Below, one piece after another: positions 29,172 to 59,359 of a stretch of DNA of 64,000 nt. Each line of letters begins with the position of its first letter. Position 1 is the first letter of the stretch. The notes under the pieces are model-generated. The model was not told the origin of the DNA and made no database searches. It saw only the letters and a list, made by a program, of their open reading frames with translations. This DNA comes from a virus, in the IMG/VR virus record IMGVR_UViG_3300042455_001893, positions 16,647-80,646 of that record; one strand, given 5' to 3'. The position numbers and the translations under genes are program-made.

Positions 29172-29247
29172 TGGTGGTAATAGTTGGACTCGAACCAACG
29201 ATAGGCTGCGTATGAAGCAACTGCATTAGCCACTATGCTATATTACC
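29172..29247 (-). tRNA. tRNA-Met (CAT)
   Basis: Acceptor GGTAATA/TATTACC, loop TTCATAC, encoded CCA. Elongator Met is most likely; a lysidine-modified Ile tRNA cannot be excluded. Confidence 0.85.
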
Positions 29248-29331
29248 ATATAAAAACACACTCAAGTCCGCGGCACGGAAGGCACTATACCCGCGATGGT
29301 CTATGACCAGGCCTAATGTGTTTTTATATGG
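29246..29331 (-). repeat. Inverted repeat bridging tRNA-Met and tRNA-Lys
   Basis: Perfect 15-bp stem (CCATATAAAAACACA with its complement at 29317-29331) and a 56-nt loop containing further hairpins (CGCGG/CCGCG, TGGTC/GACCA). It ends at the CCA of tRNA-Lys and touches the 5' end of tRNA-Met, so the spacer between the two tRNAs folds as a unit. Confidence 0.7.
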
Positions 29332-29402
29332 TAGGGGTGCTCGGGAACGATCCGAGTTTTACTGGTTAAAAGCCAGTTACTTCACCTTAAAGTTTCACCC
29401 CC
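29329..29402 (-). tRNA. tRNA-Lys (TTT), unusual T-loop
   Basis: Stem ACTGG/CCAGT, loop CTTTTAA, encoded CCA. The T-loop is ATCGTTC instead of TTCRANY: positions 54 and 58 are swapped (A54/U58). Confidence 0.88.
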
Positions 29403-29453
29403 GTTATCTTATCACTCTTGTCACTAGTCATGACAGATCTCCTTTTAAAAAAT

Positions 29454-29528
29454 TGGTAGCCTATCTTGGGAACGATCCAAGGACCCCCGCCTTATCAAGA
29501 CGGTGCTCTACCACTGAGCTAATAGGCT
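29454..29528 (-). tRNA. tRNA-Ile (GAT), unusual T-loop
   Basis: Acceptor AGCCTAT/ATAGGCT, loop TTGATAA, encoded CCA. Same A54/U58-swapped T-loop (ATCGTTC) as tRNA-Lys. Confidence 0.88.
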
Positions 29529-29537
29529 GTATTAGGC

Positions 29538-29645
29538 GGACGAATCATTATCACTGCCACGCCCAGGTCATTCGGCAGGGGTACGCCACTTGGCGGTTAG
29601 GAAAGGTAACCCGTGTGCATCTAACACTGCTCAAATGATTCGTCC
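29538..29645 (-). ncRNA. Cloverleaf-like RNA element, not a tRNA
   Basis: A perfect 12-bp closing stem (GGACGAATCATT and complement) encloses three hairpins: CTGCC/GGCAG, CGCCA/TGGCG and GTTAG/CTAAC. No CCA end or T-loop is present. It fills the space between tRNA-Ser(TGA) and tRNA-Ile. Confidence 0.55.
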
Positions 29646-29650
29646 ATAGT

Positions 29651-29740
29651 TGGCGGAAGTAGTAGGATTCGAACCCACGGACCCTTTCGAGCCTTCAGTT
29701 TTCAAGACTGCTGCCTTAAGCCATGCTCAGCCATACTTCC
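29651..29740 (-). tRNA. tRNA-Ser (TGA)
   Basis: Class II, loop CTTGAAA, variable arm CTCGAAAGG, discriminator G, encoded CCA. Confidence 0.93.
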
Positions 29741-29745
29741 ATGAT

Positions 29746-29826
29746 TGGTACCCCGGGCGGGAGTTGAACCCGCATTTAAATTTCTCTTTTTGAGAGAGAC
29801 GACTTTGCCAATTTGTCTACCGGGGC
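29746..29826 (-). tRNA. tRNA-Leu (CAA), short variable arm
   Basis: Acceptor GCCCCGG/CCGGGGT, stem TCTCT/AGAGA, loop CTCAAAA, encoded CCA. The variable region is only about 9 nt (AATTTAAAT), unusually short for Leu. Confidence 0.82.
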
Positions 29827-29836
29827 AAAAGAAAAA

Positions 29837-29869
29837 CTCCACAGCATCGACTATGTCGAACGAGTGGAG
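29837..29869. repeat. Spacer hairpin
   Basis: CTCCAC/GTGGAG stem with an inner TCGA/TCGA pair, between tRNA-Leu(CAA) and tRNA-Cys. Confidence 0.5.
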
Positions 29870-29876
29870 CCATGTT

Positions 29877-29954
29877 TGGAGTGGCGGGTGAGATTTGAAC
29901 TCACGATTTTACGGATTTGCAATCCGTTGCAATGGGCCTCTCTGCCACCGCCAC
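29877..29954 (-). tRNA. tRNA-Cys (GCA)
   Basis: Stem ACGGA/TCCGT, loop TTGCAAA, discriminator T as in Cys tRNAs, encoded CCA. Confidence 0.94.
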
Positions 29955-29961
29955 ATAAATT

Positions 29962-30036
29962 TGGAAGACCGTAGGGGAGTCGAACCCCTCTTACCAGGAT
30001 GAAAACCTAGTGTCCTAACCGATAGACGAACGGTCC
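29962..30036 (-). tRNA. tRNA-Glu (TTC)
   Basis: Acceptor GGACCGT/ACGGTCT, loop TTTTCAT, T-stem AGGGG/CCCCT, encoded CCA. Confidence 0.92.
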
Positions 30037-30044
30037 ATAAAACT

Positions 30045-30120
30045 TGGCGTACCCTCACGGCCTCGAACCGCGAACCTCTGGTTTTGGAGACCAGCGCTCT
30101 GCCAATTGAGCTAAGGATAC
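30045..30120 (-). tRNA. tRNA-Trp (CCA)
   Basis: Stem CTGGT/ACCAG, loop CTCCAAA, discriminator G, encoded CCA. Not a suppressor. Confidence 0.94.
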
Positions 30121-30125
30121 ATTAT

Positions 30126-30202
30126 TGGCTCCCCGGGGAAGGCTCGAACTTCCGACATCGGCATTAACAGTGCCGCGCAACTACCAACTGTGCTACCGAG
30201 GA
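30126..30202 (-). tRNA. tRNA-Asn (GTT)
   Basis: Acceptor TCCTCGG/CCGGGGA, stem CGGCA/TGCCG, loop CTGTTAA, encoded CCA. Confidence 0.94.
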
Positions 30203-30209
30203 ATAAACT

Positions 30210-30284
30210 TGGCGGTCTGTGGGGGAATCGAACCCCCGTAAGCGGATAGACAATCCGCAGTAATAACCTCTATACGAACAGACC
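30210..30284 (-). tRNA. tRNA-Asp (GTC)
   Basis: Acceptor GGTCTGT/ACAGACC, stem GCGGA/TCCGC, loop TTGTCTA, discriminator G, encoded CCA. Confidence 0.94.
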
Positions 30285-30292
30285 TAAAATTG

Positions 30293-30487
30293 TTAAGCAA
30301 CGCCGCGGAACGTGACACGGCACCGTTCTTGGCCACCATATTGGGCTTCTGCTATACGCACAGCATCTCCGGATGTCTGGGCATTTACTACAGTTTCAAA
30401 TTGTCGAAGGCTCTCAGTTTGAAAAGCACCGCTGGTACCTTCACCTGCATACGAACCCACTTCAACATAAACACGATACGATTGCAT
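30293..30487 (-). CDS. Small protein, paralogue of the gene at 23630
   Basis: 64 residues from ATG 30487 (MQSYRVYVEVGSY), with AAAAGGAAA 6 nt upstream. Beta-strand start and Ala-rich helix (NAQTSGDAVRIAEAQYGGQ) as in the protein at 23630. A consensus-like promoter lies 30 nt upstream. Function unknown. Confidence 0.7.
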   Translation of the reverse strand: MQSYRVYVEVGSYAGEGTSGAFQTESLRQFETVVNAQTSGDAVRIAEAQYGGQERCRVTFRGVA

Positions 30488-30517
30488 TTGATTTCCTTTT
30501 AAGTTCACAGTATTAAT

Positions 30518-30546
30518 AGTATAACACCAATCCAAAAAAAAGTCAA
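30518..30546 (-). promoter_or_regulatory. Sigma70-type promoter (TTGACT-17-TATACT)
   Basis: Good hexamers with a 17-nt gap just below tRNA-Tyr, reading into 30487 and the following tRNAs. Confidence 0.75.
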
Positions 30547-30555
30547 CCATTCGTT

Positions 30556-30644
30556 TGGTGGACGAGGTAGGAGTCGAACCTACAATGTTTCTTATGTGGC
30601 GGATTTACAGTCCGTTGCCTTCAACCAATTCAGCGCACTCGTCC
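30556..30644 (-). tRNA. tRNA-Tyr (GTA)
   Basis: Class II variable arm, stem CGGA/TCCG, loop CTGTAAA, acceptor GGACGAG/CTCGTCC, encoded CCA. First tRNA of the array in transcription order. Confidence 0.94.
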
Positions 30645-38954: not shown

Positions 38955-39236
38955 ATGGGCGACATTTTCAAGATTATAGGCGATCTGGGCATGCCAGTAG
39001 CCGCTGCACTAGCAGGTGGGTATTTTGTATACTTAACCATTAAGCTATTGCTACAGGGCGTACTTGGCTCTATCAACGGCATGAAGGGCATTATTATTGC
39101 TCTAGACAATCGTGTCAAAACCATGAATCACGATGTAATACGTATTGATACTATTGTATCCAATGCACTAGGTCTACGGCCTGATGCAGATCGTATTGCC
39201 CGAGCCGATGGAAAGAATGATGCTCGTAGAGATTAA
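38955..39236 (+). CDS. Small membrane protein, possible holin-like (1)
   Basis: 93 residues: an N-terminal membrane segment (12-36) followed by a charged helix with the LDNRVKTMNHDVIRIDT pattern. The layout (one TM, then coiled coil and charged tail) is that of BhlA/UviB-type holins, and a longer relative is at 39933. It uses a GGGAGCGA ribosome site. Confidence 0.6.
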   Translation: MGDIFKIIGDLGMPVAAALAGGYFVYLTIKLLLQGVLGSINGMKGIIIALDNRVKTMNHDVIRIDTIVSNALGLRPDADRIARADGKNDARRD

Positions 39237-39932: not shown

Positions 39933-40265
39933 ATGGATATAGTTGAACTTGTAAACAAATATGGTTTTCCAATTGTCATGGCAGTGGGAATGGGCTTTAT
40001 CATCAAGTATGTTTGGGAATGGGCCACGAAAGAAGTCAAGCCCGTTATCAGCGAAGCTAACACCGTTCTTATCGCCCTAATCGATCGTATACGTATGTTG
40101 GACAACGATTTGATTCGACTAAATCAAAAGGTCAATACAGTATTACACCTACGAGGCAAGACAATTGAGTTTGAACGTGTAGAAGCAGAAACAGAAATTA
40201 ACAAGATTACACAATCTAAAAAGAAATCTGAGGACGATAAGTCAGCCGCAGCAGGCGAAAGTTAA
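39933..40265 (+). CDS. Small membrane protein, possible holin-like (2)
   Basis: 110 residues. Membrane helix 12-32 (FPIVMAVGMGFIIKYVWEW), amphipathic LIALIDRIRMLDNDLIRLNQKVN, charged tail ending SEDDKSAAAGES. Related in layout to the gene at 38955; one of the pair may be a holin or membrane-tethered scaffold. Confidence 0.6.
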   Translation: MDIVELVNKYGFPIVMAVGMGFIIKYVWEWATKEVKPVISEANTVLIALIDRIRMLDNDLIRLNQKVNTVLHLRGKTIEFERVEAETEINKITQSKKKSEDDKSAAAGES

Positions 40266-40923: not shown

Positions 40924-42966
40924 TTACTTCTCGTGAGCAACAAACTCGCCGTTCCAGTTGTCGCCTAGATCTTGCAGTTTCATAAAGTCGCAACGCTCGA
41001 TCCAGATTTTGTAGTACTTGTCCATTTGTCCACCAAAGTTGCCCTTTAGCTTTGCACACATAGCGGCAGCTTCGTCAAACTTTTTCTGTCGGTACAAGTC
41101 ATGCATCACTTCGTGTGCTATCTTATCTCTAGTGTAGTCTGCACCCTTAGTACGTAATACTGTATAGATCAAGTCTGCCACAGTTTTTCCTTTAGGCTGT
41201 AAGTTATCTATCATTAGATAAAAGAAGTCGTCTTTGGTACGATTGTATGTTTCAGCACCAATAATACATAGTACACCATAGGCCTTACAACGTGCTTCTA
41301 GTCGTGCCGCGGTTGACACCATATCACCTAAGATGTCATAACCGTGTCTGTCAGTTGATCCCATCTCGCCAATAAAGCCAATACCAGTATTGCAACCCCA
41401 ACCCATTGCGGCAGGTGGTAATCCTTGTGCTTCCATCAGTTTTGTGTATTCGTCAACAGCATCCAGCATCTCTAGGCCAACAGCAACAATAGTTCTAGCA
41501 TGATTGGTGTCTTCGATAGGAGCACCATGTATGTGCATACTCGCATCACCTACATACTTTAATATCATGCCGTTGTTGTTCATGATAGGACGACTGATAG
41601 CATCCATGTAGCCGTTCATATACTTGCCTAGTCCGCCTACATCATCACCATAGTGTTCACCAATAGGAGTAAAGCCACGCAGGTCACTGAACATAACTGA
41701 TACATCTTTGCGTACACCACGCTTGATTAAGTCTGGATCTTTTTGTAGTAGCTCTACAACTTCTTTAGAGCAATAACCCGCAAACTGTTTCTTTATGGCC
41801 TGCTTCTGTAAGAACTCGCTTACAAATTTAACGCCATAAGTATGAAGAGCAACGATAACAAGCCCAAACGTGATTGCAGTCGCATCTGATAGGATGAGCC
41901 AATTACTGAAAGCGTACATAGTACCAGGAACGACGGCACCAACAATAACCACAGCAGAACCAATTCCAACATAAGTCCACCTCGATAAGAAAATTAACAA
42001 TATGCCGAATACTAGTAATGCTAGGATTTCAACTCCGTCGGCATAGTCGGGACGTTGAATTACCACTCCGTTGATCATAGTTGCCATTGCTGCCGCTTGT
42101 ACATCCTGCGGCCACACTGCACCTTTAGCTGTAGGCAAAGGATTAGCAATGCCTGCGGCTGTTGGACCTACTATAACTATAGCACCATTAAAGTTTTTGG
42201 GCAAGTCCAAAAGACTCGCCTGTTGGTTTTCTTGACTCCAATCGATCCATACACGACCTAACGCATCTGTTGTAATAGGACCAAACTTGGGTATGCGCAT
42301 TTTCTCAACACCATTTTCATTGAGCTTGACTTGGAAGGTTGAATCACCAGCTGCGACTCTAAGTGCTTCCATAGACATACTGGGATATAATTTACCATCA
42401 ACGGATACAACTAGGGGCAGTCGTCGATTAACACCGTCTACTTCTGGCAGTGTACTAACGATACCAATGCCTGCTGCTGCATTTTCTAACTGAGGTACAT
42501 TGGCAATAAGTCCCGGGTATTGTACAATTTGATCCTGCCACTCTGGACCTAGTACAGCACTACCTGGATTGCGAGGAGAGTTCTTAGTTTTTTGTGATGG
42601 TACGCTGCCCATTACAACTGGATATTGTTTTAGGGCCGTTGCGAGAACAGCATCGCCACCAGTGCGATCAGGCTCAGCCATGATAACATTGAGCACAACA
42701 AGGCCAGCACCACGATCATAAAGATCTTTAATAATTTTTGCATACTCTGCCCTTGGTAAAGGCCACTGGCCATATTTGTCCAATGCTGCTTCATCTATGT
42801 TTACCGTATAGATGTTATTGGCAGTTGGAGTTTTATTAGTAATCAGTGTGTCAAAGTAGCGTAGTCTTACACTTTCTACAAAGACAGGATCGGCGATTCT
42901 TATACTTACAATAAGTGCCAATGTTAATAGGGCAGTCCAAGGACTAGTTAGGATTTTTTTCAGCAT
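40924..42966 (-). CDS. CHASE2-domain class III adenylate/guanylate cyclase
   Basis: 680 residues. Residues 1-340 form an N-terminal TM and a CHASE2 sensor (YTVNIDEAALDKYGQWPLPRAEYA), then TM helices near 320-380. The catalytic domain at 420-600 has DVSVMFSDLRGFT (metal Asp 1) and LKYVGDASMHIHGAP (metal Asp 2), with STAARLEA downstream. CHASE2-cyclases sense an extracytoplasmic signal and make cAMP or cGMP. In bacteria CHASE2-cyclases often neighbour FecR proteins, as here. The near-leaderless promoter CATAAATATTTCATG precedes it. Confidence 0.9.
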   Translation of the reverse strand: MLKKILTSPWTALLTLALIVSIRIADPVFVESVRLRYFDTLITNKTPTANNIYTVNIDEAALDKYGQWPLPRAEYAKIIKDLYDRGAGLVVLNVIMAEPDRTGGDAVLATALKQYPVVMGSVPSQKTKNSPRNPGSAVLGPEWQDQIVQYPGLIANVPQLENAAAGIGIVSTLPEVDGVNRRLPLVVSVDGKLYPSMSMEALRVAAGDSTFQVKLNENGVEKMRIPKFGPITTDALGRVWIDWSQENQQASLLDLPKNFNGAIVIVGPTAAGIANPLPTAKGAVWPQDVQAAAMATMINGVVIQRPDYADGVEILALLVFGILLIFLSRWTYVGIGSAVVIVGAVVPGTMYAFSNWLILSDATAITFGLVIVALHTYGVKFVSEFLQKQAIKKQFAGYCSKEVVELLQKDPDLIKRGVRKDVSVMFSDLRGFTPIGEHYGDDVGGLGKYMNGYMDAISRPIMNNNGMILKYVGDASMHIHGAPIEDTNHARTIVAVGLEMLDAVDEYTKLMEAQGLPPAAMGWGCNTGIGFIGEMGSTDRHGYDILGDMVSTAARLEARCKAYGVLCIIGAETYNRTKDDFFYLMIDNLQPKGKTVADLIYTVLRTKGADYTRDKIAHEVMHDLYRQKKFDEAAAMCAKLKGNFGGQMDKYYKIWIERCDFMKLQDLGDNWNGEFVAHEK

Positions 42967-42970
42967 GAAA

Positions 42971-42978
42971 TATTTATG
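42971..42978 (-). promoter_or_regulatory. Late-type promoter motif CATAAATA
   Basis: CATAAATA, 4 nt (TTTC) before the cyclase ATG. Confidence 0.5.
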
Positions 42979-42983
42979 CTGTT

Positions 42984-44639
42984 TTATTGTCCCTGTGTCA
43001 CAGTAATTTTAGCACAACCGCCTACAGTGGTGCAGTTGTGAGTGATTGAATAGTAGTTTTGAGTACTGCCACTTTGTGTTAGACTTAGATCAGTAGGTGT
43101 ACCGCTTAGATTAACTTTGGCCATATGACTGGCGCTGCCTTGTTGCAGTACGTCGACATTCTTATTACCGCCACTTAGTGTGATTTCAGCATAGTGACTG
43201 CCGCCGTCTTTTTGTTGTACCAGCAAACTATTGTTATTGCCGCTGACATCAGCAAATATTCCTTTAGTACCACCAGTACTGGTCTGTTGTAGATCTACTA
43301 AGTTAAAATTACCCACAACTCTCAAGTCAACATAATTTGCCTGTGTTGTAGCATTTCCTGTTTGTGCGATATTAATATCATTGCTTAGACCATTGCCGTA
43401 ATATTCGACATAATTATTTTTAGTCCCGCTTTGATTTACTTCAACTACGTTTTGTGTGCCGATCTGTTCTATGTGTACTTGGCTATCGGCAGTTGTTCTA
43501 TTAACGAATGTTAAAACTTTAGCCGTGTTTGTTGTGTTAGCATTAAATGCGGCTGCTGATCCACCGCAACATAACGTATTTGCGGCGGCGGTTGTTGGAT
43601 CAACAATAGTATTGCTAGTTGCTGTACTTGTGGTTGTACTATTAGCATCATAGAAATAGGTAATCTCTGCAATTTGTACGCTATTACCAGCATTGTTTTT
43701 AATAGAAGGGAATATCATAAAATAATAAACATAGGCCGTAGAGTTAGTTACTGCGATATCGCTACTAACACTAAATCTATTATCGGACAAAGATAGTGCG
43801 CCTTGTTGAATTAATGTCCATGTTGATCCGTCATTTGATCCGTAGAGTTTATAACTTGTTGGATCTCGCTCTACAGCATCATTAGCTGTAGTTAATTTAA
43901 AACTAGTAACAACTCGCCCAGCATTTAATTGGATAGTAACTCCAGCATTTTGTTTATCGAAGTTTAAGTACTTGGTATAGGGATTGTTATCAAACGCATT
44001 AGTAGGACCTTCATTGCTTGGACTATTATTGCTAGTTGGTATTGCTCTGGTAACATACACACCAGAACTGTTATTGTAAATTGCGGTAGGCGCAGGTGGC
44101 GGCGGCGCCGCATTACTAGGAGTAGATGTAGCAGTCTGCCCTGAACTTAACGGTACTGTAGAATACGTGGCGTTAGCGTATGTATCGGCCTGTTGTATAG
44201 TCGGATTAAGTGCGCCAGTCCACGATACTCCGCTGGTAGTTGACATACCCGAGCTGCCACTGAATAGCTGTCCTGTATTGTTGTCATTGCCTACAAAGAA
44301 GAAATAATCTGGACCCATGTTGACAATTTTACCTGTGCCTATAGTACCAGCTAGTGTGCCGTTGCTGTTGTAAACTTTGCCTTCGTAGGGATAGCTGGCA
44401 TTCCCTGTCAACCCAAATTGTACATACTGTCCTGACTGCCAACTCCAAGTTCCATTGAACCATGGTATTTTGTACATAGTACCAGGTTGCTTACTGTAAA
44501 TTTGGCAGGTTGTTGTATTCAAACAGGCACTGACATTCCATTGGCTGTCTGCAATTTGGTATCGTCCAAACTTTATATCTGTTAGGGCGCCAAATGCGTT
44601 AGAGCAGAATAATAACAATAAAAAAATTATTCGTTTCAT
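42984..44639 (-). CDS. Curlin-repeat protein with F5/8C-like domain
   Basis: 551 residues, signal peptide 1-17 (FLLLFCSNAFG). A region near 200-320 resembles a discoidin (F5/8 type C) carbohydrate-binding domain (GPTNAFDNNPYTKYLNFDK; DPTSYKLYGSNDGSTWTL). The C-terminal 180 residues hold Asn/Gln-rich curlin-like repeats (EQIGTQNVVEVNQSG; NIAQTGNATTQAN; LQQKDGGSHYAEI). It may be an adhesive amyloid subunit with a sugar-binding head. Same operon as FecR and the second curlin. Confidence 0.8.
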   Translation of the reverse strand: MKRIIFLLLLFCSNAFGALTDIKFGRYQIADSQWNVSACLNTTTCQIYSKQPGTMYKIPWFNGTWSWQSGQYVQFGLTGNASYPYEGKVYNSNGTLAGTIGTGKIVNMGPDYFFFVGNDNNTGQLFSGSSGMSTTSGVSWTGALNPTIQQADTYANATYSTVPLSSGQTATSTPSNAAPPPPAPTAIYNNSSGVYVTRAIPTSNNSPSNEGPTNAFDNNPYTKYLNFDKQNAGVTIQLNAGRVVTSFKLTTANDAVERDPTSYKLYGSNDGSTWTLIQQGALSLSDNRFSVSSDIAVTNSTAYVYYFMIFPSIKNNAGNSVQIAEITYFYDANSTTTSTATSNTIVDPTTAAANTLCCGGSAAAFNANTTNTAKVLTFVNRTTADSQVHIEQIGTQNVVEVNQSGTKNNYVEYYGNGLSNDINIAQTGNATTQANYVDLRVVGNFNLVDLQQTSTGGTKGIFADVSGNNNSLLVQQKDGGSHYAEITLSGGNKNVDVLQQGSASHMAKVNLSGTPTDLSLTQSGSTQNYYSITHNCTTVGGCAKITVTQGQ

Positions 44640-45730
44640 GGACGTCTTAACACTCCAGTCTTTTGTACAATGTTTACTACATTACCGCCTGGATCTCCGC
44701 TACCAACAAACGTAAACGCATATTGATCATTGTGGCTTATAGACACAAATGTGTTTGAATCATAGCCTGTGGTTTTAACTTCAGCATAATGATCTGTATT
44801 ACTTCTATAGGCTGTACCTTTGCCTTTACTTTGTATATCAGGAGAGTCGTTCTTTTCCCATGCCACGCAAACAGTAGTACTTGGATTACATCCTTTCTTA
44901 CCATCAGAAAATGTATCTGGCAATAGTACAGGGTCGCTTTTTTCGTTGGCTTTTTCAACACGCATAGCTATTTGTCGTTGGGCGTCTGCCTCGAGTTCTT
45001 CTAATTCAGTATCACGTTTTGATCTGCCGGCATCTTTAATTGCCTGCAAGACTTCTTGAGGCTTAACAATGATTAAGTTATTACCTATCTTGCCTTCAAC
45101 GGTATTGACAATAACTGGGGAAGTTGGCATCATTGAAGCACTGGTGACATAGGTAGCTTCGAATGCCTTGTCTAAGGTCACTGATCCAATGCCTGTAGTC
45201 ACTGTGATACTGCCAACCTTACATCGTTGTTCATCTAGTTCAAATTGTTTAACGTCTTTTTCGTCTTTACAACTAGGAACCAGCATGATAAGACTTTGCC
45301 CAGTTTCATCCACAGTCATAGTGAAATCAGTGCCACGCACTGCTACTGTAGCTGTTGGAGTTTTGATGTTTACCTGTTGCGGATTATTTTTAGCAATTTG
45401 TCCGCTAGCGTATCGGACAGTGCCCATACCAACTTTGAGCGCGAGCTTGCCTGCATCTGATTTCTTAGGATCGAAAACAAAATCGTCGATAAGCAATCTG
45501 CTGTTTTCTGTAACTTTGACTTTGGTATCATCTTTGAATGTTATATTACTTACACAAGCACCGGTTGTATAAGTGTCCATGCTTTCAATTTCAGCACCCT
45601 TAACTCCTGACATCTTTTTCTTATTGCGTTCAACTTCACAGGCTGTGCCTTTGTTTTCTGAAACCGTGCCAATGCCAGCCCAAGAAGGGCTGGCCACTGT
45701 TAGCAGTAGGGCTAACAACAAGACACGCAT
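44636..45730 (-). CDS. FecR-domain protein
   Basis: 364 residues with a signal peptide. Central FecR domain: VGMGTVRYASGQIAKNNPQQVNIKTPTATVAVRGTDFTMTV. FecR domains sit in the periplasm or membrane and sense or relay signals; in betaproteobacteria FecR genes often flank CHASE2 cyclases and curlin loci. The C-terminal 120 residues are basic and repetitive. Overlaps both flanking genes (ATGA), so strictly co-translated. Confidence 0.8.
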   Translation of the reverse strand: MRVLLLALLLTVASPSWAGIGTVSENKGTACEVERNKKKMSGVKGAEIESMDTYTTGACVSNITFKDDTKVKVTENSRLLIDDFVFDPKKSDAGKLALKVGMGTVRYASGQIAKNNPQQVNIKTPTATVAVRGTDFTMTVDETGQSLIMLVPSCKDEKDVKQFELDEQRCKVGSITVTTGIGSVTLDKAFEATYVTSASMMPTSPVIVNTVEGKIGNNLIIVKPQEVLQAIKDAGRSKRDTELEELEADAQRQIAMRVEKANEKSDPVLLPDTFSDGKKGCNPSTTVCVAWEKNDSPDIQSKGKGTAYRSNTDHYAEVKTTGYDSNTFVSISHNDQYAFTFVGSGDPGGNVVNIVQKTGVLRRP

Positions 45731-45732
45731 AA

Positions 45733-46548
45733 TTATCTCGCAATCGCTGTGGCTGGAGATACAATAGCTGAACTACTTGTACGAACTGTGATAGTGTTGT
45801 TGCTACCCTGTGTTTGTATATTAACTGTGGTATCGTTGGTGCCTTGTTGCTGTGTGGTGATGCTGTTGTAGTCGCCTGTGGTCATCATAGCAAGAACATG
45901 TCCGTTAGCACCCGCTGCATCTAATTGCTGGATGTTGAACACGTTAGCGTTTCCATTAGCTACATTTGATACACTACCTCTGCTGCTTAACAAACTACTA
46001 GTAACTTGGTTATTATCTCCATCCAAAACTGTGTTAGTAGTAATATTGCTACCAACTAGATCTTGTAGAATCATATTGTTATTACCGATAATTTGTTCTG
46101 TAATAACGTTTTGGCTGTTTGTAGCGTTGTTGGTATTGCCAATAGTTAATCTAGTTTGATTACCATTGCCTAACATATTAGTAGTGTAGCTGTTATTACT
46201 TCCACGAATATTGTATTGGCTACTGTTAGCATTTCCTGTTTGTGTAATGTCAACTATGTTTGTGCTTCCGGTAATAGTTCCATAGTTAGTAGCACTCGGT
46301 GCGTCTGGAGTCAGTGTAGTAATACCTGTTCCTGCTACTGTCGTTGCTACAGTTGTAGTAACGCCGCCAACATTGTTAGTCCCGCCAACTTGTTCAATTG
46401 TGATAGTATTGCTACTACCCACTTGTTCGATATAAACCTTGTTAGGACCTGTTGCTGTCTGAGCACCACTTATGGTGGCAAAGCTCATCAGCATCACTGT
46501 GAGTAATTTTCTCGACAACCCACAACCGCCTGTCATTGTTTGTTTCAT
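45733..46548 (-). CDS. Curlin (CsgA/CsgB-like) amyloid protein
   Basis: 271 residues. Signal peptide ends SGAQ. From residue ~30, repeats of the curlin type: YIEQVGSSNTITIEQVGG, DITQTGNANSSQYN, ITTQQQGTNDTTVNIQTQG, each with Asn/Gln and Gly at strand turns. Curlin repeats form cross-beta fibres outside the cell. Immediately upstream is the csgG-like gene, and a 3 x 16-nt repeat lies in the gap. Could coat the cell surface or the virion. Confidence 0.85.
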   Translation of the reverse strand: MKQTMTGGCGLSRKLLTVMLMSFATISGAQTATGPNKVYIEQVGSSNTITIEQVGGTNNVGGVTTTVATTVAGTGITTLTPDAPSATNYGTITGSTNIVDITQTGNANSSQYNIRGSNNSYTTNMLGNGNQTRLTIGNTNNATNSQNVITEQIIGNNNMILQDLVGSNITTNTVLDGDNNQVTSSLLSSRGSVSNVANGNANVFNIQQLDAAGANGHVLAMMTTGDYNSITTQQQGTNDTTVNIQTQGSNNTITVRTSSSAIVSPATAIAR

Positions 46549-46692
46549 TTTTTTAAAATGTCAGTTTATTGTTTGCTGACAAGTTCCTGGTCATTGACCT
46601 ATAATTATACCACTTCTCTAATCTACTCCTCTCCGTAGACTTACTTCTTGTAATTTTATTTAATCTCTGTACTCTAGAAATTAAATGCCGCT

Positions 46693-46740
46693 GTTAAAAT
46701 TTCAACATGTTAAAATTTCAACATGTTAAAATTCCAACAC
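46693..46740. repeat. Three tandem 16-nt repeats
   Basis: GTTAAAATTTCAACAT twice exactly, then GTTAAAATTCCAACAC. Each unit is nearly palindromic. They sit in the 194-nt gap between the csgG-like and curlin genes; an operator array is plausible. Confidence 0.6.
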
Positions 46741-46742
46741 CA

Positions 46743-47978
46743 TTAAGGTTTGTTAACCAGTACATCCTTATTAACAAATCCTTTTCGTTTTTGTGAGTCA
46801 CTGACTGCTACCCAATCACCCTCTTGTCCTATAATTGTAACTAAAGCACCTTTCTTAAACTGCCAAGTTTTTTGACTTGTTAGGTCGGGCTCTTTATAAA
46901 TGTAAGAAGCTTCCTTTAAAATCATCTCACCTGAAAGTTTTTCAACCGGTACAACTTCTTTCTTTATTTCTGCGGGGGCACTGGATACGGCTTCGGTTTT
47001 GGTTTCGGGTTTGGCTTGTGATTGAACCACGACATCTTTCTTCTCCTCTACTACTGGTACTGATATTACTACTGGTGCAGGTATTACTACTGGTGCAGGT
47101 ATTACTACTGGTGCAGGTATCGCCGGAATAACGGCAACCGGAGAACTTACTTTATTGCTTTTAAATGCCCAGTGTCCTTTACGAGCACCTTCATTAATAG
47201 TTTGAATCACTGCTGCCTGTACAGCTACGTCGATTGCCTTGTTGATACTTTCATTTATGCTGCCGCCGATCTCACCCTCTAATGCATTTGCATTTGCACC
47301 TAAAGTTGTGCCATCTCCAACAAATCGCAATAATGTCACTTTGTCCATATAACTTAACACTGTTTTAGTTACTGTCACAGTTGTTAAAATTTCGCCTGTA
47401 GACACGCTCACTGTTCTTAAGGTAACTGTCACAGTGTCTGATTGGTATTGTGTGCTTGCCCCAATACCAAACAGTCTTACTCCACTACCGCCTGTTAGTG
47501 TATTGCTATCGTAGCCAACAATGCCACCTTCCATGATGATCCCGGCAAACATCATTGGGGGCAACATCTTGGCATCACGGCCTTGGTATTGCTCACGCAT
47601 TTGACGAATCATTTGACGTTCTTTGATCAAGTTCTCTAGGCCAACACGTTCTAGTACTGTGAACCAGCGTTGATCACCTACATCCTGTAGGGCCTTGATT
47701 AGATAGTTTTCAGCACCTTGTGTAACAGCTGAACTTAATGACGCAATCAGTGGCTGGCTTTTACGTTGCCCTGTTAGATCTCTAAATCCATACACTGCCA
47801 CTGTTAACGGTCCGCCTTCTGGTGGTTGTAATTTATTAGAGTCTTTCTTTAGAAATTTACTAGACTCGACTTTCGGTTCGTCAAACTGGTTTCCAGTTAT
47901 TTTTTCTTTGATAGCCGAACTTGATGCGCACCCACTCAATACTGCTACAACGGCCAGGGATAATAGTGTTTGTTTCAT
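46743..47978 (-). CDS. csgG: CsgG-like outer-membrane curli secretion lipoprotein with SH3 tail
   Basis: 411 residues. Lipobox LSGC with acylated C17. The CsgG domain runs ~60-270 (VAVYGFRDLTGQRK; ERVGLENLIKERQMI; GIIMEGGIVGYDSNTLTGG; RLFGIGASTQYQSDTVTV). A Pro-rich IPAPVV repeat linker follows and an SH3_3-like domain ends it (EASYIYKEPDLTSQKTW...GDWVAVSDSQ). CsgG oligomerises as the pore exporting curlin subunits. Such a pore in a phage would need the phage's own or host lipoprotein sorting. Confidence 0.9.
   Translation of the reverse strand: MKQTLLSLAVVAVLSGCASSSAIKEKITGNQFDEPKVESSKFLKKDSNKLQPPEGGPLTVAVYGFRDLTGQRKSQPLIASLSSAVTQGAENYLIKALQDVGDQRWFTVLERVGLENLIKERQMIRQMREQYQGRDAKMLPPMMFAGIIMEGGIVGYDSNTLTGGSGVRLFGIGASTQYQSDTVTVTLRTVSVSTGEILTTVTVTKTVLSYMDKVTLLRFVGDGTTLGANANALEGEIGGSINESINKAIDVAVQAAVIQTINEGARKGHWAFKSNKVSSPVAVIPAIPAPVVIPAPVVIPAPVVISVPVVEEKKDVVVQSQAKPETKTEAVSSAPAEIKKEVVPVEKLSGEMILKEASYIYKEPDLTSQKTWQFKKGALVTIIGQEGDWVAVSDSQKRKGFVNKDVLVNKP
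47064..47122. repeat. Eighteen-nt tandem repeats in csgG
   Basis: Three or so copies of an 18-nt unit (core ATTACTACTGGTGCAGGT) encoding the (I-P-A-P-V-V)n linker between CsgG and SH3 domains. Confidence 0.7.
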
Positions 47979-47981
47979 GTA

Positions 47982-48464
47982 TTATCCTCCAAATCCAAAT
48001 GTGCCACTTGGCACCTTCATTTCTGTAAATTGTCTTGGATCTAATACATTTTCAATTCTAACAATAATAAATGTACCTTCTACTTTCCAGGTGATGTTAT
48101 TACCGGCAACTTCCATTTGTCCGCAATTACCTGCACTGTTAGCAGTACACACTGGAACACCGTTAACACCAAACAAACTATCTGTAATCTGCTTGGCCAA
48201 CTGTGAATAGATACGACTTTCTAAGTTTGCTTGAAACTTAGCCTGCGGAGTGTTTAATGCATCACTCTCTGCCTTTGCTTTAAGAGCATCAGCTGCTGCT
48301 TTATTTTTGTCTCTGGCCTGTGTCTCTAATTGATAGAGTGTTAGAACGTGAGAACTATATCCAATCCCTGAAAAGGATGGACTATTAAAATTGTGTTGTA
48401 ATTCTGCACCATTGACTACTGATGCTGTAGCCATTAATATGGTGGCTATTATAAACTTAACCAT
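47982..48464 (-). CDS. csgF: CsgF-like curli assembly factor
   Basis: 160 residues. Signal peptide ends VVNGA; the mature start ELQHNFNSPSFSGIGYSS matches CsgF (QFRNPNFGGNP), the segment that plugs the CsgG pore. Next are LYQLETQARDKNKAAAD and ESRIYSQLAKQITDSLFG like CsgF's C-terminal part. CsgF docks on CsgG and chaperones curlin nucleation. First gene of the operon, 4 nt from csgG; late-type leader upstream. Confidence 0.88.
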   Translation of the reverse strand: MVKFIIATILMATASVVNGAELQHNFNSPSFSGIGYSSHVLTLYQLETQARDKNKAAADALKAKAESDALNTPQAKFQANLESRIYSQLAKQITDSLFGVNGVPVCTANSAGNCGQMEVAGNNITWKVEGTFIIVRIENVLDPRQFTEMKVPSGTFGFGG

Positions 48465-49966: not shown

Positions 49967-49974
49967 TATTTAGC
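49967..49974 (-). promoter_or_regulatory. Late-type promoter motif GCTAAATA
   Basis: GCTAAATA 6 nt before ATG 49960. Confidence 0.5.
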
Positions 49975-50662
49975 TGATTTCAGGGAACAGGCATTCTTGA
50001 ATAAAATGTTTAACGTCCTCTTCTGAAAGCCCTAAACTAACCATTACACGTGGTGTATGCGGGTTCTGCTTTTGATTTTCGCAGTAGTAGTTCTGTGCCT
50101 CTGTAGTATCGTTAGCTGTATTATTGGTTTCTGCTACCGTGCTCAAATAGTGCTGTATGCCCTCTTTTGCCATGGCAATAATCTGTGCTAGTTCTTCTTC
50201 ATCGCTAACGTTCCCAGCAGCTACCATACTAGGGCTAAAGATACGTTCTGCCCAATCTGGCAGTTTGCGAGTTTTATTCCACTCTAGCTTTTGTGCTTCT
50301 TCTGCAAACCAATCCATCATAGCATGTTCTTTATCGCCGGCAGCTGAGTAATCATAGAAACACCCGGTGATCTTGTTCTTGCCTGCAATTACATCGAATC
50401 CAAAGATCGGTGCAGGATTATGTGTATGCGGGAAGATGCAACAGTGCATCATCCAGAGTCCTTTGGTTTCTCTAGCATCCACAACATCAACGTGAGCCCT
50501 ACGATAACTGCTACTGGTCCAAACACGATTAACCCAACCAGGGCTGTTGAAGCGATCCATACCCGTTTCATATACTTCCTTTCCGGTTTTGTTGAACTGT
50601 TCAATAAACAGCTCTTGCACTTCAATGAGTGTTTGCCAGACTTTACTTGTTGATGTTTGCAA
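49970..50662 (-). CDS. Ferredoxin-dependent bilin reductase (PcyX/PebS-like)
   Basis: 230 residues. FPHTHNPAPIFGFDVIAGKN and KITGCFYDYSAAGD are the diagnostic FDBR motif; RRAHVDVVDARETKGLW precedes it. FDBRs reduce biliverdin to phycobilins with ferredoxin electrons. The PcyX type is known from phages of presumed non-cyanobacterial hosts. It overlaps the heme oxygenase gene upstream, so biliverdin is handed on directly. Confidence 0.85.
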   Translation of the reverse strand: MQTSTSKVWQTLIEVQELFIEQFNKTGKEVYETGMDRFNSPGWVNRVWTSSSYRRAHVDVVDARETKGLWMMHCCIFPHTHNPAPIFGFDVIAGKNKITGCFYDYSAAGDKEHAMMDWFAEEAQKLEWNKTRKLPDWAERIFSPSMVAAGNVSDEEELAQIIAMAKEGIQHYLSTVAETNNTANDTTEAQNYYCENQKQNPHTPRVMVSLGLSEEDVKHFIQECLFPEIS

Positions 50663-51194
50663 TTTCCATCATCTCTTTAAAAAATTGTGTAGCAAAATCA
50701 AAACAGACTTTTGCTTCGTCGGCCATGCTGTCGTCGATTTTTAAACGAACTGCTGCTTTTAGACTATCGGCATCTTCAAATTGATAGTACTTGCCAGCCC
50801 CGGGCACCTTTTTGGCAATCATTTGTCCGCCAGCTAGATCGCCCATGTGTCGTACATAAAGGTGTGCCATTAGCAATTTAGGATCATCTTTAATTTTCAT
50901 AATATGATCCATATACTCTTTTACCACTGCACACATTTTGGGTCTATCTTCTTCGTCTGATCCCCATAATTCCTCAAAGTCAGCTCTAATGGCCTTGGCC
51001 CGTAAGATTCCTGGCATGTCAGACAGCAGTCCATGCGGCATGGCACATACTTCTAACAGCTCATACATAGGAAATTGATTGTAGAGATATGTAGCGTACA
51101 GTTTGGGATCTATGGTTCCTGAAAACAGTATTTTTACAAACTCCTGTCTTTCTGCATTGGTGTGATTGTCTTTGGTTAATTCTCTTAGGCTCAT
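50643..51194 (-). CDS. ho1: Heme oxygenase
   Basis: 183 residues. Heme ligand His region SLRELTKDNHTNAERQEF, and LLMAHLYVRHMGDLAGGQMIAKK is the classical distal helix signature. Opens heme to biliverdin, CO and iron. Together with the FDBR downstream it makes a complete heme-to-phycobilin pathway. Confidence 0.93.
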   Translation of the reverse strand: MSLRELTKDNHTNAERQEFVKILFSGTIDPKLYATYLYNQFPMYELLEVCAMPHGLLSDMPGILRAKAIRADFEELWGSDEEDRPKMCAVVKEYMDHIMKIKDDPKLLMAHLYVRHMGDLAGGQMIAKKVPGAGKYYQFEDADSLKAAVRLKIDDSMADEAKVCFDFATQFFKEMMEIANINK

Positions 51195-51207: not shown

Positions 51208-51468
51208 TTATCTGAAACGTAGTATCAGCATCACAAGATCCTGTTCACTGTTGAGCTTGAGAATATAATCGTTGACATTGAATCTTTGATACTGCCAACG
51301 TGTTCCCAATGGACCAAAAGCTGATTCTACAAATCGTATTATACTTAGTTTGCCGGACTTGCCACTGGCTTGAGAACTGGGACGCTGATCTCTAAAATGA
51401 ACCCAATAACCGAATCTACGTGCCCCTGTAAATTGATGTTTGATTAATCGCACATCGTCAAAGGTCAT
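51208..51468 (-). CDS. Small phage protein, possible paralogous family member
   Basis: 86 residues. The end NDYILKLNSEQDLVMLILRFR resembles the D.VMF.L tail of the 35-38 kb family. Overlaps clpS by 4 nt. Confidence 0.6.
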   Translation of the reverse strand: MTFDDVRLIKHQFTGARRFGYWVHFRDQRPSSQASGKSGKLSIIRFVESAFGPLGTRWQYQRFNVNDYILKLNSEQDLVMLILRFR

Positions 51469-51767
51469 TCTTCTTGTTCTAGTGTGATGCGCAATGGAAA
51501 CCCATTACTTCGAGCCAGTTGAGTTGATTCTATGCCTTTGGTCTCGGCAATCTCATGAGTGTAGACTCCTGCCACAGCACTGCCAGAATTATGTATTTCC
51601 AGAGTGATATCTTTGGCTGCACTTACACTGTGTTTAAATATGTCAGTTAACAATTCTATCACAAACTCCATAGGAGTCTTTTCATCGTTGAGCACGATTA
51701 CTTTCCACATTTTAGGTGGCTGTAAACTTGTTATAATTTTTTCTTCTATTTGAATTTCAGTGGTCAT
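51465..51767 (-). CDS. clpS: ClpS adaptor protein
   Basis: 100 residues. WKVIVLNDEKTPMEFVIELLTDIF is the ClpS N-degron-binding site (N-D at LND, TPMEFV helix). ClpS delivers N-end-rule substrates to ClpAP. With phage ClpP this could steer degradation of host or phage proteins. Confidence 0.88.
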   Translation of the reverse strand: MTTEIQIEEKIITSLQPPKMWKVIVLNDEKTPMEFVIELLTDIFKHSVSAAKDITLEIHNSGSAVAGVYTHEIAETKGIESTQLARSNGFPLRITLEQEE

Positions 51768-51782
51768 TTTTATTTCTCCAAC

Positions 51783-51800
51783 TGGGGGATTTCTCCCCCA
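51783..51800 (-). other. Intercistronic hairpin between clpS and hsp20
   Basis: TGGGGGA/TCCCCCA stem with GAAA loop, without a following T-run; may protect or process the mRNA. Confidence 0.5.
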
Positions 51801-51808
51801 TTGATTGA

Positions 51809-52255
51809 TTATTTAACTTCCACAATGTCAATCACACGTGGCTTTTCAGACTCGGGAATATTGCGGATCAATTTCACAATCAGCATGCCATTGCGGATTT
51901 CTGCACCTGCAACTTCCATGTGTTCAGCAAGTGGAAACTCACGAACAAAGTCGCGGGTGGCTAGACCACGATGCAAGTAAACAATTTCCGGATTCTCATG
52001 GCGAACAGATTCTGCTCCTTCGCCTTTTACTGTAAGCACATTAGCTTCTACAGTTACGGAAATTTCCGATTTTTCAAATCCTGTCACAGCAATTTGAATC
52101 TCATACTGATTCTCACCAGTCTTGAGTATATTGTGCGGAGGATAGTTGTTGGACACACTGTTGGAAAATCTACGTTCCATTTGGTCGAACATGGTGTCAA
52201 AACCAATCAGTGCTCTATTAATAGCTTCAATTCTTTGTAATGCGTTATTGTTCAT
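51809..52255 (-). CDS. Small heat-shock protein (Hsp20/IbpA type)
   Basis: 148 residues from ATG 52255 with AAAGGAGA upstream. Alpha-crystallin core: YEIQIAVTGFEKSEISVTVEANVLTVKGEG, then LATRDFVREFPLAEHMEVAGAEIRNGMLIVKL, and C-terminal RNIPESEKPRVIDI (IxI/V-like). A holdase that shields unfolded proteins. Placed between DnaK and ClpS, making a proteostasis operon. Similar small Hsp20s occur in cyanophages. Confidence 0.9.
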   Translation of the reverse strand: MNNNALQRIEAINRALIGFDTMFDQMERRFSNSVSNNYPPHNILKTGENQYEIQIAVTGFEKSEISVTVEANVLTVKGEGAESVRHENPEIVYLHRGLATRDFVREFPLAEHMEVAGAEIRNGMLIVKLIRNIPESEKPRVIDIVEVK

Positions 52256-52283
52256 AATAGTCTCCTTATAAAGTAAGAACAAT

Positions 52284-52304
52284 GGGGACCCCGAAGGTGC
52301 CCCC
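52284..52304 (-). other. Intercistronic hairpin between dnaK and hsp20
   Basis: GGGG/CCCC-type stem with a TTCG loop in the 56-nt gap; not followed by a clear T-run. Confidence 0.5.
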
Positions 52305-52311
52305 AAGACAA

Positions 52312-54213
52312 TTAGCTAGACTTAGTTTCTGTAAACGTAGCGTCTACCACATTGTCATCTGCTTTGGCTTCTGGTTGAGGCGCCTGAGCTGCCTGTTCCT
52401 TGGCCTGCTTTTTCTCCAACAATGTTTTCATTGCCGGAAAAACTTTTTCGAGTTCAGCTTTAATTTTATCAGCGTCATCTTCTTTCATAGCGTCTTCGAC
52501 TGATTTAACTGCTGTCTCGATTTCTGTCTTTTCTGTATCAGTTAATTCATCTTTAAATTCTTCAAGATCTTTTTTAACTTCATGTACAGTTGCTTCAGCT
52601 TGGTTGCGAGCATCAATTAATGTTCGAGCTTTTTGATCACTCTCTGCATTTTCTTCAGCTTCACGTACCATGCGTTCAATTTCTTCTTTGCTTAGACCGC
52701 TATCTGATTTAATAGTGATCTTGTTTTCTTTGCCTGTGCTCTTGTCCTTGGCCGAGATATTCATGATACCGTTAGCATCAATATCAAATGTAACTTCGAT
52801 TTGCGGCTGTCCACGACGTTGCGGTTGAATACCTTCAAGATTGAATTCACCTAGCAATTTGTTGTATTGTACTAGATCACGCTCACCTTGGAATACCTTG
52901 ATAGTCACCGCAGGTTGATTGTCTTCTGCTGTTGAGAATGTCTGCTGTCCCTTAGTCGGAATGGTTGTGTTCTTTTGAATAACCTTTGCAAACACACCGC
53001 CCATTGTTTCAATACCCAAACTCAGTGGAGTCACATCTAGCAACAACACATCAGTACGATCGCCACCGAGAACAGCACCTTGTACTGCGGCACCTGCGGC
53101 AACAGCTTCGTCTGGATTAACATCCTTACGTGGTGCCTTGCCAAATAATTTTTCAACGGCTTCTTGTACCTTTGGCATACGTGTCATACCACCAACAAGA
53201 ATAACTTCATCGATGTCAGCGGCTGTGACACCTGCATCTTTCATGGCAACTTTACATGGCTCAATTGAGCGAGTGATTAACTCGTCAACAAGCTGTTCTA
53301 ACTTGCTACGGCTAATAGTGATATTCATGTGCTTAGGGCCACTTGCGTCTGCTGTGATGTATGGCAAATTAACACTTGTGCTTGCAGAGCTAGACAATTC
53401 AATTTTTGCCTTCTCAGCAGATTCTTTTAAACGCTGTAGAGCAAGTACATCTTTGGTTAGATCAACACCTTGATCCTTGCGGAATTCTTCAACCAAGTAA
53501 TCCATAATACGTTGGTCAAAGTCTTCACCGCCAAGGAATGTATCGCCGTTTGTGCTCAATACTTCGATCTGCTTGTCTCCATCTACGTTGGCTATTTCGA
53601 TGATCGAAACATCGAATGTACCGCCACCAAGATCGTAAACAGCAATTTTCCTATCTCTTTTATCAGCTTTATCAACGCCATAAGCAAGAGCTGCCGCAGT
53701 AGGCTCGTTAATAATACGGAGTACCTCCAGGCCTGCGATTTGTCCAGCGTCTTTAGTAGCTTGTCTTTGGCTGTCGTTAAAGTACGCAGGAACTGTGATA
53801 ACTGCTTGAGTAACTTCATGACCTAGATAATCCTCCGCTGTCTTTTTCATCTTACGCAAAACTTCTGCTGAGATTTGTGGAGGCGCCAACTCTTGACCAT
53901 TAGCACGAACCCATGCATCGCCATTCTTGGCTTCCATGATTTCGTAGGGCATAAGGTTGATGTCCTTTTGAACAGCTTCCTCTTTAAACTTGCGTCCAAT
54001 CAAACGCTTTGAAGCATAGATTGTATTTTTGGGGTTAGTAACTGATTGACGTTTTGCTGAAGCACCTACGAGAATTTCATCTTTGCCGTAGGCAACGATT
54101 GAAGGTGTTGTTCTAGCACCTTCTGCATTTTCAATTACTTTGGGGATGCCGTTTTCAATAACAGCTACACATGAGTTTGTGGTACCTAAATCGATACCGA
54201 TGATCTTAGACAT
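52312..54213 (-). CDS. dnaK: Chaperone DnaK (Hsp70)
   Basis: 633 residues, full length: [14 protein letters not shown] (phosphate 1), [11 protein letters not shown] (phosphate 2), [14 protein letters not shown], then the substrate-binding domain and lid with [19 protein letters not shown] tail (EEVD-like absent). Sequence details ([28 protein letters not shown]) look proteobacterial. No DnaJ or GrpE is in the window, so it would use host cochaperones. AAAGGAGA precedes the ATG. Full-length D naK in a phage is very unusual. Confidence 0.95.
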
Positions 54214-58813: not shown

Positions 58814-59359
58814 TTATTTCTTTCCTCTGTAAAAGATATGATTGCCGATTGTTCCAATTTTTTCTAGATTCCATTGCGGATTGACATAGTTAGCATGATA
58901 ATACAATGCTTCTTTCATTACGTCAAGTCTGAAACCTTCCAATAATACCTTTTTAGCCACAGCCATACTTTCGTTGTAAGCCGATTGGTTAATAGGTCTA
59001 GCTTTGTGCGCAGTGTCACAATACCATGAGAATTGGCAAATGACTCTGTCTATCACTACTGACTTTTGAAAAACAACTGCACAGACATCTTTTGGGAACG
59101 AGGGATGAGACGCCCTGTTCATGGTGACCTGTGCCACTGCTACTTTGCCTTCAAAGTTTTCGTGTCCTGCTTCGCGATAGATATTCATCGCTAGGCATTC
59201 TAGTTGTCGTTCTCTAGTTTTAATTGACACAATGTCGGGCGATGATAACATCTGACCCTCACGTAGCTTTTCCATTTTGGCAAAAGTTACATTCTGCACC
59301 AATAGGCATACTACAATTAAACCTATAACATAGGTGGTAAATCTAATAAATTTTTCCAT
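58814..59359 (-). CDS. SleB-type cell-wall hydrolase (endolysin candidate)
   Basis: 181 residues. N-terminal signal anchor (FTTYVIGLIVVCLLVQNV), then LECLAMNIYREAGHENFEGKVAVAQVTMNRASHPSFP, the catalytic-Glu region of SleB/Hydrolase_2 amidases or transglycosylases. QFSWYCD and ALYYHANYVNPQW complete it. Likely the phage peptidoglycan hydrolase. AAAGGAGG upstream. Confidence 0.88.
   Translation of the reverse strand: MEKFIRFTTYVIGLIVVCLLVQNVTFAKMEKLREGQMLSSPDIVSIKTRERQLECLAMNIYREAGHENFEGKVAVAQVTMNRASHPSFPKDVCAVVFQKSVVIDRVICQFSWYCDTAHKARPINQSAYNESMAVAKKVLLEGFRLDVMKEALYYHANYVNPQWNLEKIGTIGNHIFYRGKK

Follow-up and report, generated by a model that had tools for sequence, protein, structure and literature searches.

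A curli-type secretion cassette of predicted jumbo phages, with a second curlin combining a fixed tail and exchangeable heads

The stretch of DNA analysed here (the window) comprises 64,000 nt of the IMG/VR virus record IMGVR_UViG_3300042455_001893 (record positions 16,647-80,646). At 40924-48464 its minus strand carries a 7.5 kb row of six open reading frames (ORFs; coordinates checked), which code for CsgF, CsgG, a first curlin, a FecR-domain protein, a second curlin and a CHASE2-cyclase, a set of the curli (type VIII) secretion kind. We read this row, with a probability of about 0.55, as a phage curli operon that would display an adhesive amyloid with interchangeable binding heads, and in which the FecR protein and the cyclase may monitor export. 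Our analysis adds three elements to what is known of phage curli: their spread into jumbo phages, the modular construction of the second curlin, and a curlin-like strand at the end of the FecR protein.

To describe the second curlin we assembled 70 proteins encoded by the gene preceding the cyclase (slot proteins), comprising 67 representatives, among which that of locus L030 was exchanged for its curlin ORF, together with L022 (as its second ORF), L145 and L061. A C-terminal pattern C..C..VTVTQ was seen at the end of 44 of these, and a slightly wider form of the pattern in 46. When the last 165 residues of the 46 tailed proteins were compared, 1029 of the 1035 pairs were related; in the heads of the 44 tailed proteins that were long enough the figure was 344 of 946 pairs, with relatedness requiring 50% coverage of the shorter head, such that pairs sharing a single module may score as unrelated. 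The difference persisted when pairs were binned by the identity of their FecR proteins: at 80-90% identity 17/17 tails and 13/17 heads were related, at 70-80% 53/53 and 35/53, and at 60-70% 190/190 and 91/190. The loci L014 and L008 illustrate this at short distance, with tails that are 82% identical, heads without a match and the other five genes 67-87% identical, and they show a head swap between close relatives. From the first curlin motif to the end, the tail has a median length of 164 residues with quartiles of 164-169 (43 sequences). The heads fall into five families, and among the 62 distinct curlin-tailed sequences these are combined in 11 arrangements, where modules A and C, which overlap in 16 cases, are counted as one family, and where the arrangements with a single module are possibly truncated or under-detected.

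Searches of the slot proteins against Pfam recovered F5/8C domains in 19/70 and PA14 in 6/70. An assignment of module F to PA14 was considered and dropped, as the protein from which the module was defined (L101) has no PA14 match. With the structural model of the window's curlin 2, Foldseek retrieved CBM32 structures that bind galactose, among them 4a44 (E 1.8e-6, template modelling (TM) score by target 0.75). In this model the tail (residues 381-550) consists of consecutive β-strands with per-block predicted confidence (pLDDT) of 71-92. Pfam calls no curlin in this protein, and the curlin motif [QN]xGxxN stands at 1.98 versus 0.91 in slot proteins, with p<0.05 in 11/99. We nevertheless term the tail curlin-type because the nearly headless protein of L145 (207 aa) exceeds the cut-off of the Curlin_rpt family with 31.6 bits; the L061 protein is likewise almost headless. 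The head families A/C-B and E also occur on six long slot proteins that lack the tail and end in phenylalanine. One of these (L124) has an autotransporter β-domain (2e-14) and two have F5/8C domains; that the remaining ones also end in a β-barrel is a guess on our part. Such tail-less head carriers could constitute a second way of display.

The domain matches bear out the sequence-only reading of this DNA, which had named the six minus-strand genes and proposed a phage-borne export-and-fibre module with a pore, its adaptor and amyloid-type subunits: the ORFs are as it placed them, and the Pfam matches to CsgF, CsgG, FecR, F5/8C, CHASE2 and the cyclase domain all exceed their cut-offs, with curlin 1 slightly under its own and no call for the tail of curlin 2. 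The gaps between the genes from csgF to the cyclase gene measure 3, 194, 2, -4 and 17 bases, which gives the row an operon-like layout with a single spacer, between csgG and curlin 1, and the GC content is ~0.39-0.43 across the operon and its flanks. CsgF scores above its Pfam cut-off and has no sequence match in the PDB at E<=1. CsgG, for which the proposed profile search gave a clear match, aligns over residues 3-274 with structures of E. coli CsgG such as 6l7a (3e-45), and holds a bacterial SH3 domain in a C-terminal extension. A lipobox-like pattern is present in 89 of 103 distinct CsgG relatives. At the positions of E. coli Tyr51, Asn55 and Phe56, which we take to be the gate residues in that numbering, the window protein reads Gln, Ser and Leu in the alignment. 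A search of the 103 CsgG sequences with a rough regular expression, which ends some loops early, found 102 gating loops, 88 of them without an aromatic residue.

The corresponding profile check for curlin was borderline by Pfam alone, since curlin 1 scores 19.9 bits, just below the cut-off of 20.7; its motif count supports a curlin. It contains three [QN]xGxxN motifs versus 0.79 in shuffled sequences (p 0.044), and over 119 loci the mean is 3.08 versus 0.78, with p<0.05 in 78 of them. The 72 aa curlin 1 calls of L082 and L145 are fragments, the true L145 ORF overlapping csgG. Thus, a CsgG lipoprotein, a CsgF adaptor and curlin-repeat subunits, the features by which curli (type VIII) systems are recognised, are all present, the curlin repeats being the weakest of the three.

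To follow the cassette across relatives, IMG/VR was scanned using patterns derived from CsgG and the cyclase of the window; 80 of 105 and 80 of 98 loci, respectively, were taken. These 160 loci and those of the phages HTVC008M and Melnitz, after removal of second loci on the same contig, gave 143 loci, a sample that leans to close relatives and retains near-identical contigs (for example, 103 distinct CsgG sequences among 129). Gene order was counted on four anchors (csgF, csgG, fecR and cyclase), with the curlin ORFs chosen by position. All four anchors are present in 99 loci, and in 97 of these they share the same order and strand. Each of the 97 ordered loci has two further ORFs, of which one separates csgG from fecR and matches the window's curlin 1 in 85 cases, and the other separates fecR from the cyclase gene, so that all six genes are called in 97 of the 143 loci, within a span of at most 11.8 kb. 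In the other 44 loci at least one anchor was not called, and many of these loci are short or end at a contig edge. Where both csgF and csgG were found, they adjoin with order and strand kept (128/128). The called slot proteins of the 97 loci are 74-1445 aa long, compared with 349-414 aa for FecR, 146-185 aa for CsgF and 259-444 aa for CsgG. Judged by these matches, the cassette recurs widely, including in contigs of more than 200 kb.

The record from which the window comes is an 80.6 kb virus fragment. Contigs of four IMG taxon ids (L004-L007) contain a CsgG identical to that of the window (100%), and one of these contigs, the 353 kb record G001, also holds the window's 14-23 kb segment at 100% and a gp23 capsid gene (2.6e-96). 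Two IMG/VR scans provided nine records of more than 200 kb (201-372 kb), of which 7/9 have gp23, 8/9 a CsgG match and 7/9 all six genes; in one (L091) the cyclase alone was found, close to the contig end. The gp23 search covered these nine large records. Given that the 353 kb record shares CsgG and carries gp23, and that gp23 is present in seven of the nine large records, we identify the source as a T4-related jumbo phage. In two records the gp23 match is in two pieces (G002:C1 91959-92939 and G007:C1 178431-179405); as each pair of pieces lies inside one open frame of ~400 aa, it is probably a split alignment.

An assembly chimera or bacterial contamination, which a step in GC from ~0.33 to 0.41 near 18 kb of the window might suggest, has a negligible probability in our estimation. 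The step lies more than 20 kb from the operon in a region that is 100% continuous in the 353 kb contig, and gp23 is found in that contig among the 7/9. The sequence-only reading had asked if the flanking phage genes belong with the operon, and homologs of both flanks were indeed seen next to the cassette in other contigs. Of the 86 loci with sufficient downstream sequence, 75 have a pair of phrog_18771 membrane proteins within 3 kb of the cyclase gene on that side, while homologs of bilin reductase and heme oxygenase lie within 3 kb upstream of csgF in 57/102 and 56/102 loci. Since these outer neighbours recur around the cassette, they argue against a chimeric joint. Together with the CsgG identity across four taxon ids and the continuity of the 14-23 kb segment, they led us to reject this explanation, and an assembly joint at the operon is very unlikely.

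In its model (pLDDT 79.6), the FecR-domain protein begins with a hydrophobic stretch, followed by the FecR domain, a long helix and, at the C terminus, a β-domain of five strands. The folds that match it best belong to anti-sigma/FecR-type domains, for instance the signalling domain of PupR (E 3.8e-5), and no Pfam family besides PF04773 was detected at E<=0.1. The FecR sigma regulator of iron uptake is an inner-membrane protein with a cytoplasmic anti-sigma part ahead of its FecR domain; the window protein does not show that layout, having just PF04773 after a short hydrophobic start. The end of the protein is typified by a motif [VITLF]x[VIL]x[QN], which was found in the last 20 residues of all 93 distinct complete FecR proteins versus 17.0 expected, and in 48/82 slot proteins versus 12.3 expected. 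It is at chance in CsgF (13/101 versus 13.2), CsgG (7/100 versus 8.7) and the cyclase (3/85 versus 3.2). Two FecR alignments, with 16 and 50 rows, both show Gln356 as invariant, and the strict [QN]xGxxN motif is nearly absent from these proteins (0.02 per protein). We infer that the end of the FecR protein may touch curlin.

Class III cyclases use two metal-binding aspartates, a lysine that specifies the base, and an asparagine and an arginine acting in the transition state. In our alignment the columns of Asp428 (85/85), Asp474 (84/85), Lys470 (85/85) and Arg555 (85/85) are kept. The spacer between csgG and curlin 1 contains two exact tandem copies of a near-palindromic 16-mer, TTTTAACATGTTGAAA, and the rest of the window has no copy of it at <=2 mismatches (two-strand matches number 4 versus 0.20 expected); exact copies were found in 12/199 loci, all from the window's phage or its near relative L008/L009. 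The T4 late promoter TATAAATA occurs 3 times in the window versus 6.1 expected, and it was rejected as a signal preceding the operon because none is near 48.5 kb. Scans of the window for sigma-70 promoters (21 versus 20.7 expected) and terminators (7 versus 6.7) were at chance level.

The sequence-only reading knew of no phage described with a complete module of this kind; that claim fails. According to the accessible portions of Wittmers et al. 2022 (PMC9599517), pelagipodo- and pelagimyophages carry CsgF, CsgG, CsgA/B, FecR and an adenylate cyclase, frequently together with a second CsgA/B, with CsgA/B identified in the myophages, and the GenBank records of HTVC008M and Melnitz each hold a module. 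The order given there for the T8SS module, CsgF-CsgG-CsgA/B-FecR-(CsgA/B)-AC, is that of the window and of the 97 ordered loci. The same portions propose a bacterial origin of the module, and defence against superinfection, sibling capture or uptake as its use. Phage curli pore genes had been reported earlier by Zaragoza-Solas et al. 2020 (PMC7029224), from whom the sibling capture idea comes, and by Buchholz et al. 2022 (PMC9004378), again as far as the available parts of these papers go; between them the three sources propose sibling capture, superinfection defence, uptake and lysis. The titles and abstracts searched, from a collection that holds few subscription journals or preprints, yielded no report of jumbo phages with curli. 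In the main text of PMC9599517 the terms discoidin, lectin, SH3, jumbo and adhesin do not occur.

The pelagiphage HTVC008M (L002) resembles the window in the order csgF-csgG-curlin-FecR-second curlin-cyclase and in the lack of CsgE, as described in part in PMC9599517; however, its genome is 147 kb, its cassette is flanked by baseplate genes, and the two CsgG proteins are 46% identical over 60% of the query. Melnitz (L003, PMC9004378) has the same order, two annotated curlin repeat proteins, a FecR protein and a cyclase that is 44.5% identical to that of the window over nearly its full length, and differs in its 142 kb genome with baseplate genes on one flank. The Melnitz paper, in the parts available, calls the module incomplete, with csgA and csgB absent, and reads it as a lysis pore; the GenBank record (MZ577097.1) lists two curlin-repeat proteins. 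A CsgG tree divides the IMG/VR sequences into three large groups (11, 26 and 63 rows). The window belongs to the 63-row group, outside the HTVC008M/Melnitz branch, and the 11-row group, which holds the 364 kb record L098, is sister to that branch; the branches are long and the deep joins unsure. The E. coli curli system differs from the window, which has FecR and a cyclase in the operon and changed gate residues, with CsgE not found in the nine large records.

A scan of genome contigs found 28 loci. Among them a metagenome-assembled genome (MAG; L165) of the alphaproteobacterium Hyphomonas sp. TMED17 has a 705 kb contig on which csgF-csgG-curlin-fecR-cyclase are ordered as in the window, but with one long curlin (504 aa) and nothing corresponding to curlin 2 ahead of the cyclase gene. 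This five-gene cluster indicates that FecR and the cyclase can partner curli in bacteria too. Cassettes of phage type, or cyclases, are also present on short contigs of low GC content that are binned as Rhodobacteraceae, Pirellulales, Pelagibacter and Flavobacteriaceae; these contigs probably derive from phages and ended up in MAGs.

In the mechanism we favour, the infected cell would export both curlins through CsgG-CsgF. Curlin 1 would build the amyloid, into which curlin 2 would dock by its tail, and the carbohydrate-binding-like heads would be presented on the exterior, giving an adhesive fibre. Through its curlin-like end, the FecR protein would contact unexported curlin in the periplasm, and the adjacent CHASE2 sensor might signal the state of export to the cytoplasm by a cyclic nucleotide. 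Head shuffling fits selection on the binding partner, such as sugars of neighbouring cells or particles, and for that reason we favour the sticking of the infected cell to others (sibling capture) as the use of the display.

Several observations weigh against this reading. The tail pattern is missing from 24 of the 70 slot proteins, some of which are unrelated genes, a count that is an upper bound as the slot protein was taken as the longest ORF, and Curlin_rpt matches just 15/70. The curlin 2 model has a predicted TM-score (pTM) of 0.41, and its tail fold found no match to curlin, nearly all of the 50 Foldseek matches listed being of discoidin/CBM type. The end motif of the FecR protein was picked after inspecting the ends, and in curlin 1 it is not enriched in the last 20 residues (22/96 versus 19.6; 20 versus 10.0 in the last 12). 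The cyclase gene departs from the common order or strand in two loci (L069 and L141). Signalling by a cyclic nucleotide is weakly supported, because a serine occupies the asparagine column in 73/85 cyclases, the window included, and no cyclic nucleotide monophosphate-binding protein was detected in the 9 large records. CsgE, which is the periplasmic plug in E. coli and is not part of every curli system, was found in 0/9 large records with a positive E. coli control. We do not regard its absence as defining, because CsgE is also missing from phage and alphaproteobacterial modules according to the portions of PMC9599517 at hand. Finally, Melnitz cultures showed no clumping despite the operon, as stated in the accessible part of PMC9004378.

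Blocking of rival phages is the chief alternative role for such a display; the fibres would coat or block surface receptors and the heads would vary with them. This was among the proposals in the available parts of PMC9599517, and head diversity fits receptor competition as well as cell capture. We nonetheless consider it unlikely: F5/8C domains occur in 2/9 large records and matches to the window heads in the same two, both inside the cassette and none on tail fibres, so that no shared tail-fibre domain hints at a common receptor. The idea that the F5/8C heads are also used on tail fibres was accordingly rejected for these nine records. As to virion decoration, a further role that the sequence-only reading had raised, none of our results, which include no test aimed at it, speaks for it.

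Two further proposals centre on the pore. Buchholz et al. viewed CsgG-CsgF of Melnitz, in the accessible part of PMC9004378, as a repurposed outer-membrane pore that acts like a pinholin in the timing of lysis. The recurrent phrog_18771 pair, with its weak holin match, and the gating loops without aromatic residues would suit such a role, but the pair is convergent and outside the operon, and an endolysin-like gene (58814-59359) is ~10 kb away. Lysis timing also leaves the two curlins, the conserved amyloid-type tail and the shuffled heads unexplained, and the argument in that source from missing csgA/B is at odds with the two proteins annotated in GenBank; we regard it as improbable. Still less probable is a pore for uptake, proposed in the available parts of PMC7029224 and PMC9599517, through which CsgG would admit macromolecules or cofactors to the host periplasm. 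The lack of the CsgE plug in all nine large records is consistent with an open pore of this kind, yet it would need no curlins, heads or FecR end strand, and a FecR protein with a signal-like start and PF04773 as its sole Pfam family is unlike an iron-uptake sigma regulator. The fixed tail, the shuffled heads and the FecR strand thus favour display and binding over a lysis or uptake pore, as far as can be judged from sequence.

Features of the cassette and its nearest downstream neighbours (window coordinates)
Feature	Position	Strand	Basis
csgF, extracellular adaptor/chaperone of the CsgG pore, 160 aa	47982..48464	-	PF10614 5e-8
csgG, outer-membrane lipoprotein export pore, 411 aa	46743..47978	-	PF03783 1.2e-46; SH3_4 6e-7
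csgG-curlin gap repeats, two adjacent 16-bp near-palindromes, possible regulatory site	46700..46731	-	repeat search
curlin 1, putative main amyloid subunit, 271 aa	45733..46548	-	Curlin_rpt 7e-4 and motif count
FecR-domain protein, hydrophobic signal-like start, 364 aa	44636..45730	-	PF04773 1.1e-9, residues 52-146
FecR C-terminal β-domain ending in a curlin-like strand, residues 305-356	44663..44818	-	end motif and model
curlin 2, head modules and curlin-type tail, 551 aa	42984..44639	-	F5/8C PF00754 2.1e-9; tail/head modularity
curlin 2 head module A, residues 20-190, without a Pfam name	44070..44582	-	recurs rearranged in relatives
curlin 2 head module B, F5/8C (CBM32-like), residues ~185-345	43605..44087	-	PF00754 and Foldseek
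curlin 2 fixed curlin-type tail, last ~164 residues	42984..43478	-	tail-length comparison and model
CHASE2 sensor and class III cyclase domain, 680 aa	40924..42966	-	PF05226 1.1e-38; PF00211 1.1e-12
small membrane protein, convergent neighbour, weakly holin-like	39933..40265	+	phrog_18771 9e-30; holin phrog_4898 just 0.0046
second phrog_18771 small membrane protein	38955..39236	+	1.4e-30

Elsewhere in the window, a ferredoxin-dependent bilin reductase and a heme oxygenase (49970-51194) lie just upstream of the neighbour of csgF, and are followed by a proteostasis row of ClpS, Hsp20 and a full-length Hsp70/DnaK (51465-54213). A set of 29 tRNA genes occupies the minus strand at 22439-30644. A permuted tmRNA of the two-piece type at 63451-63889 (RF04321, 120.5 bits) also matches the betaproteobacterial tmRNA model RF01850, and these model scores are a hint, no more, of a betaproteobacterial host. 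Positions 1-18500, with radical SAM, desaturase and ATP-grasp genes on mixed strands, have a GC content of ~0.28-0.38 versus ~0.41 beyond, and perhaps form a foreign island rather than a joint, given the 100% continuity of 14-23 kb in the 353 kb contig.

A fixed amyloid-type tail joined to shuffled and partly CBM32-like heads favours a binding role for these fibres. Our broader proposal, which is tentative and which we place somewhat below even odds, is that jumbo phages cause infected cells to display an adhesive amyloid whose heads are exchanged between phages in the manner of tail-fibre tips, on the curlin tail or on another surface anchor encoded in that slot, and that the FecR protein may gauge or cap unexported curlin in the periplasm and inform the CHASE2-cyclase, which would link fibre export with signalling in the host cell. 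A complete curli module was already known from smaller marine phages, going by the accessible portions of the literature, and the spread into jumbo phages goes beyond this: contigs with the system reach 372 kb, well above the size of the pelagiphages from which it was described.

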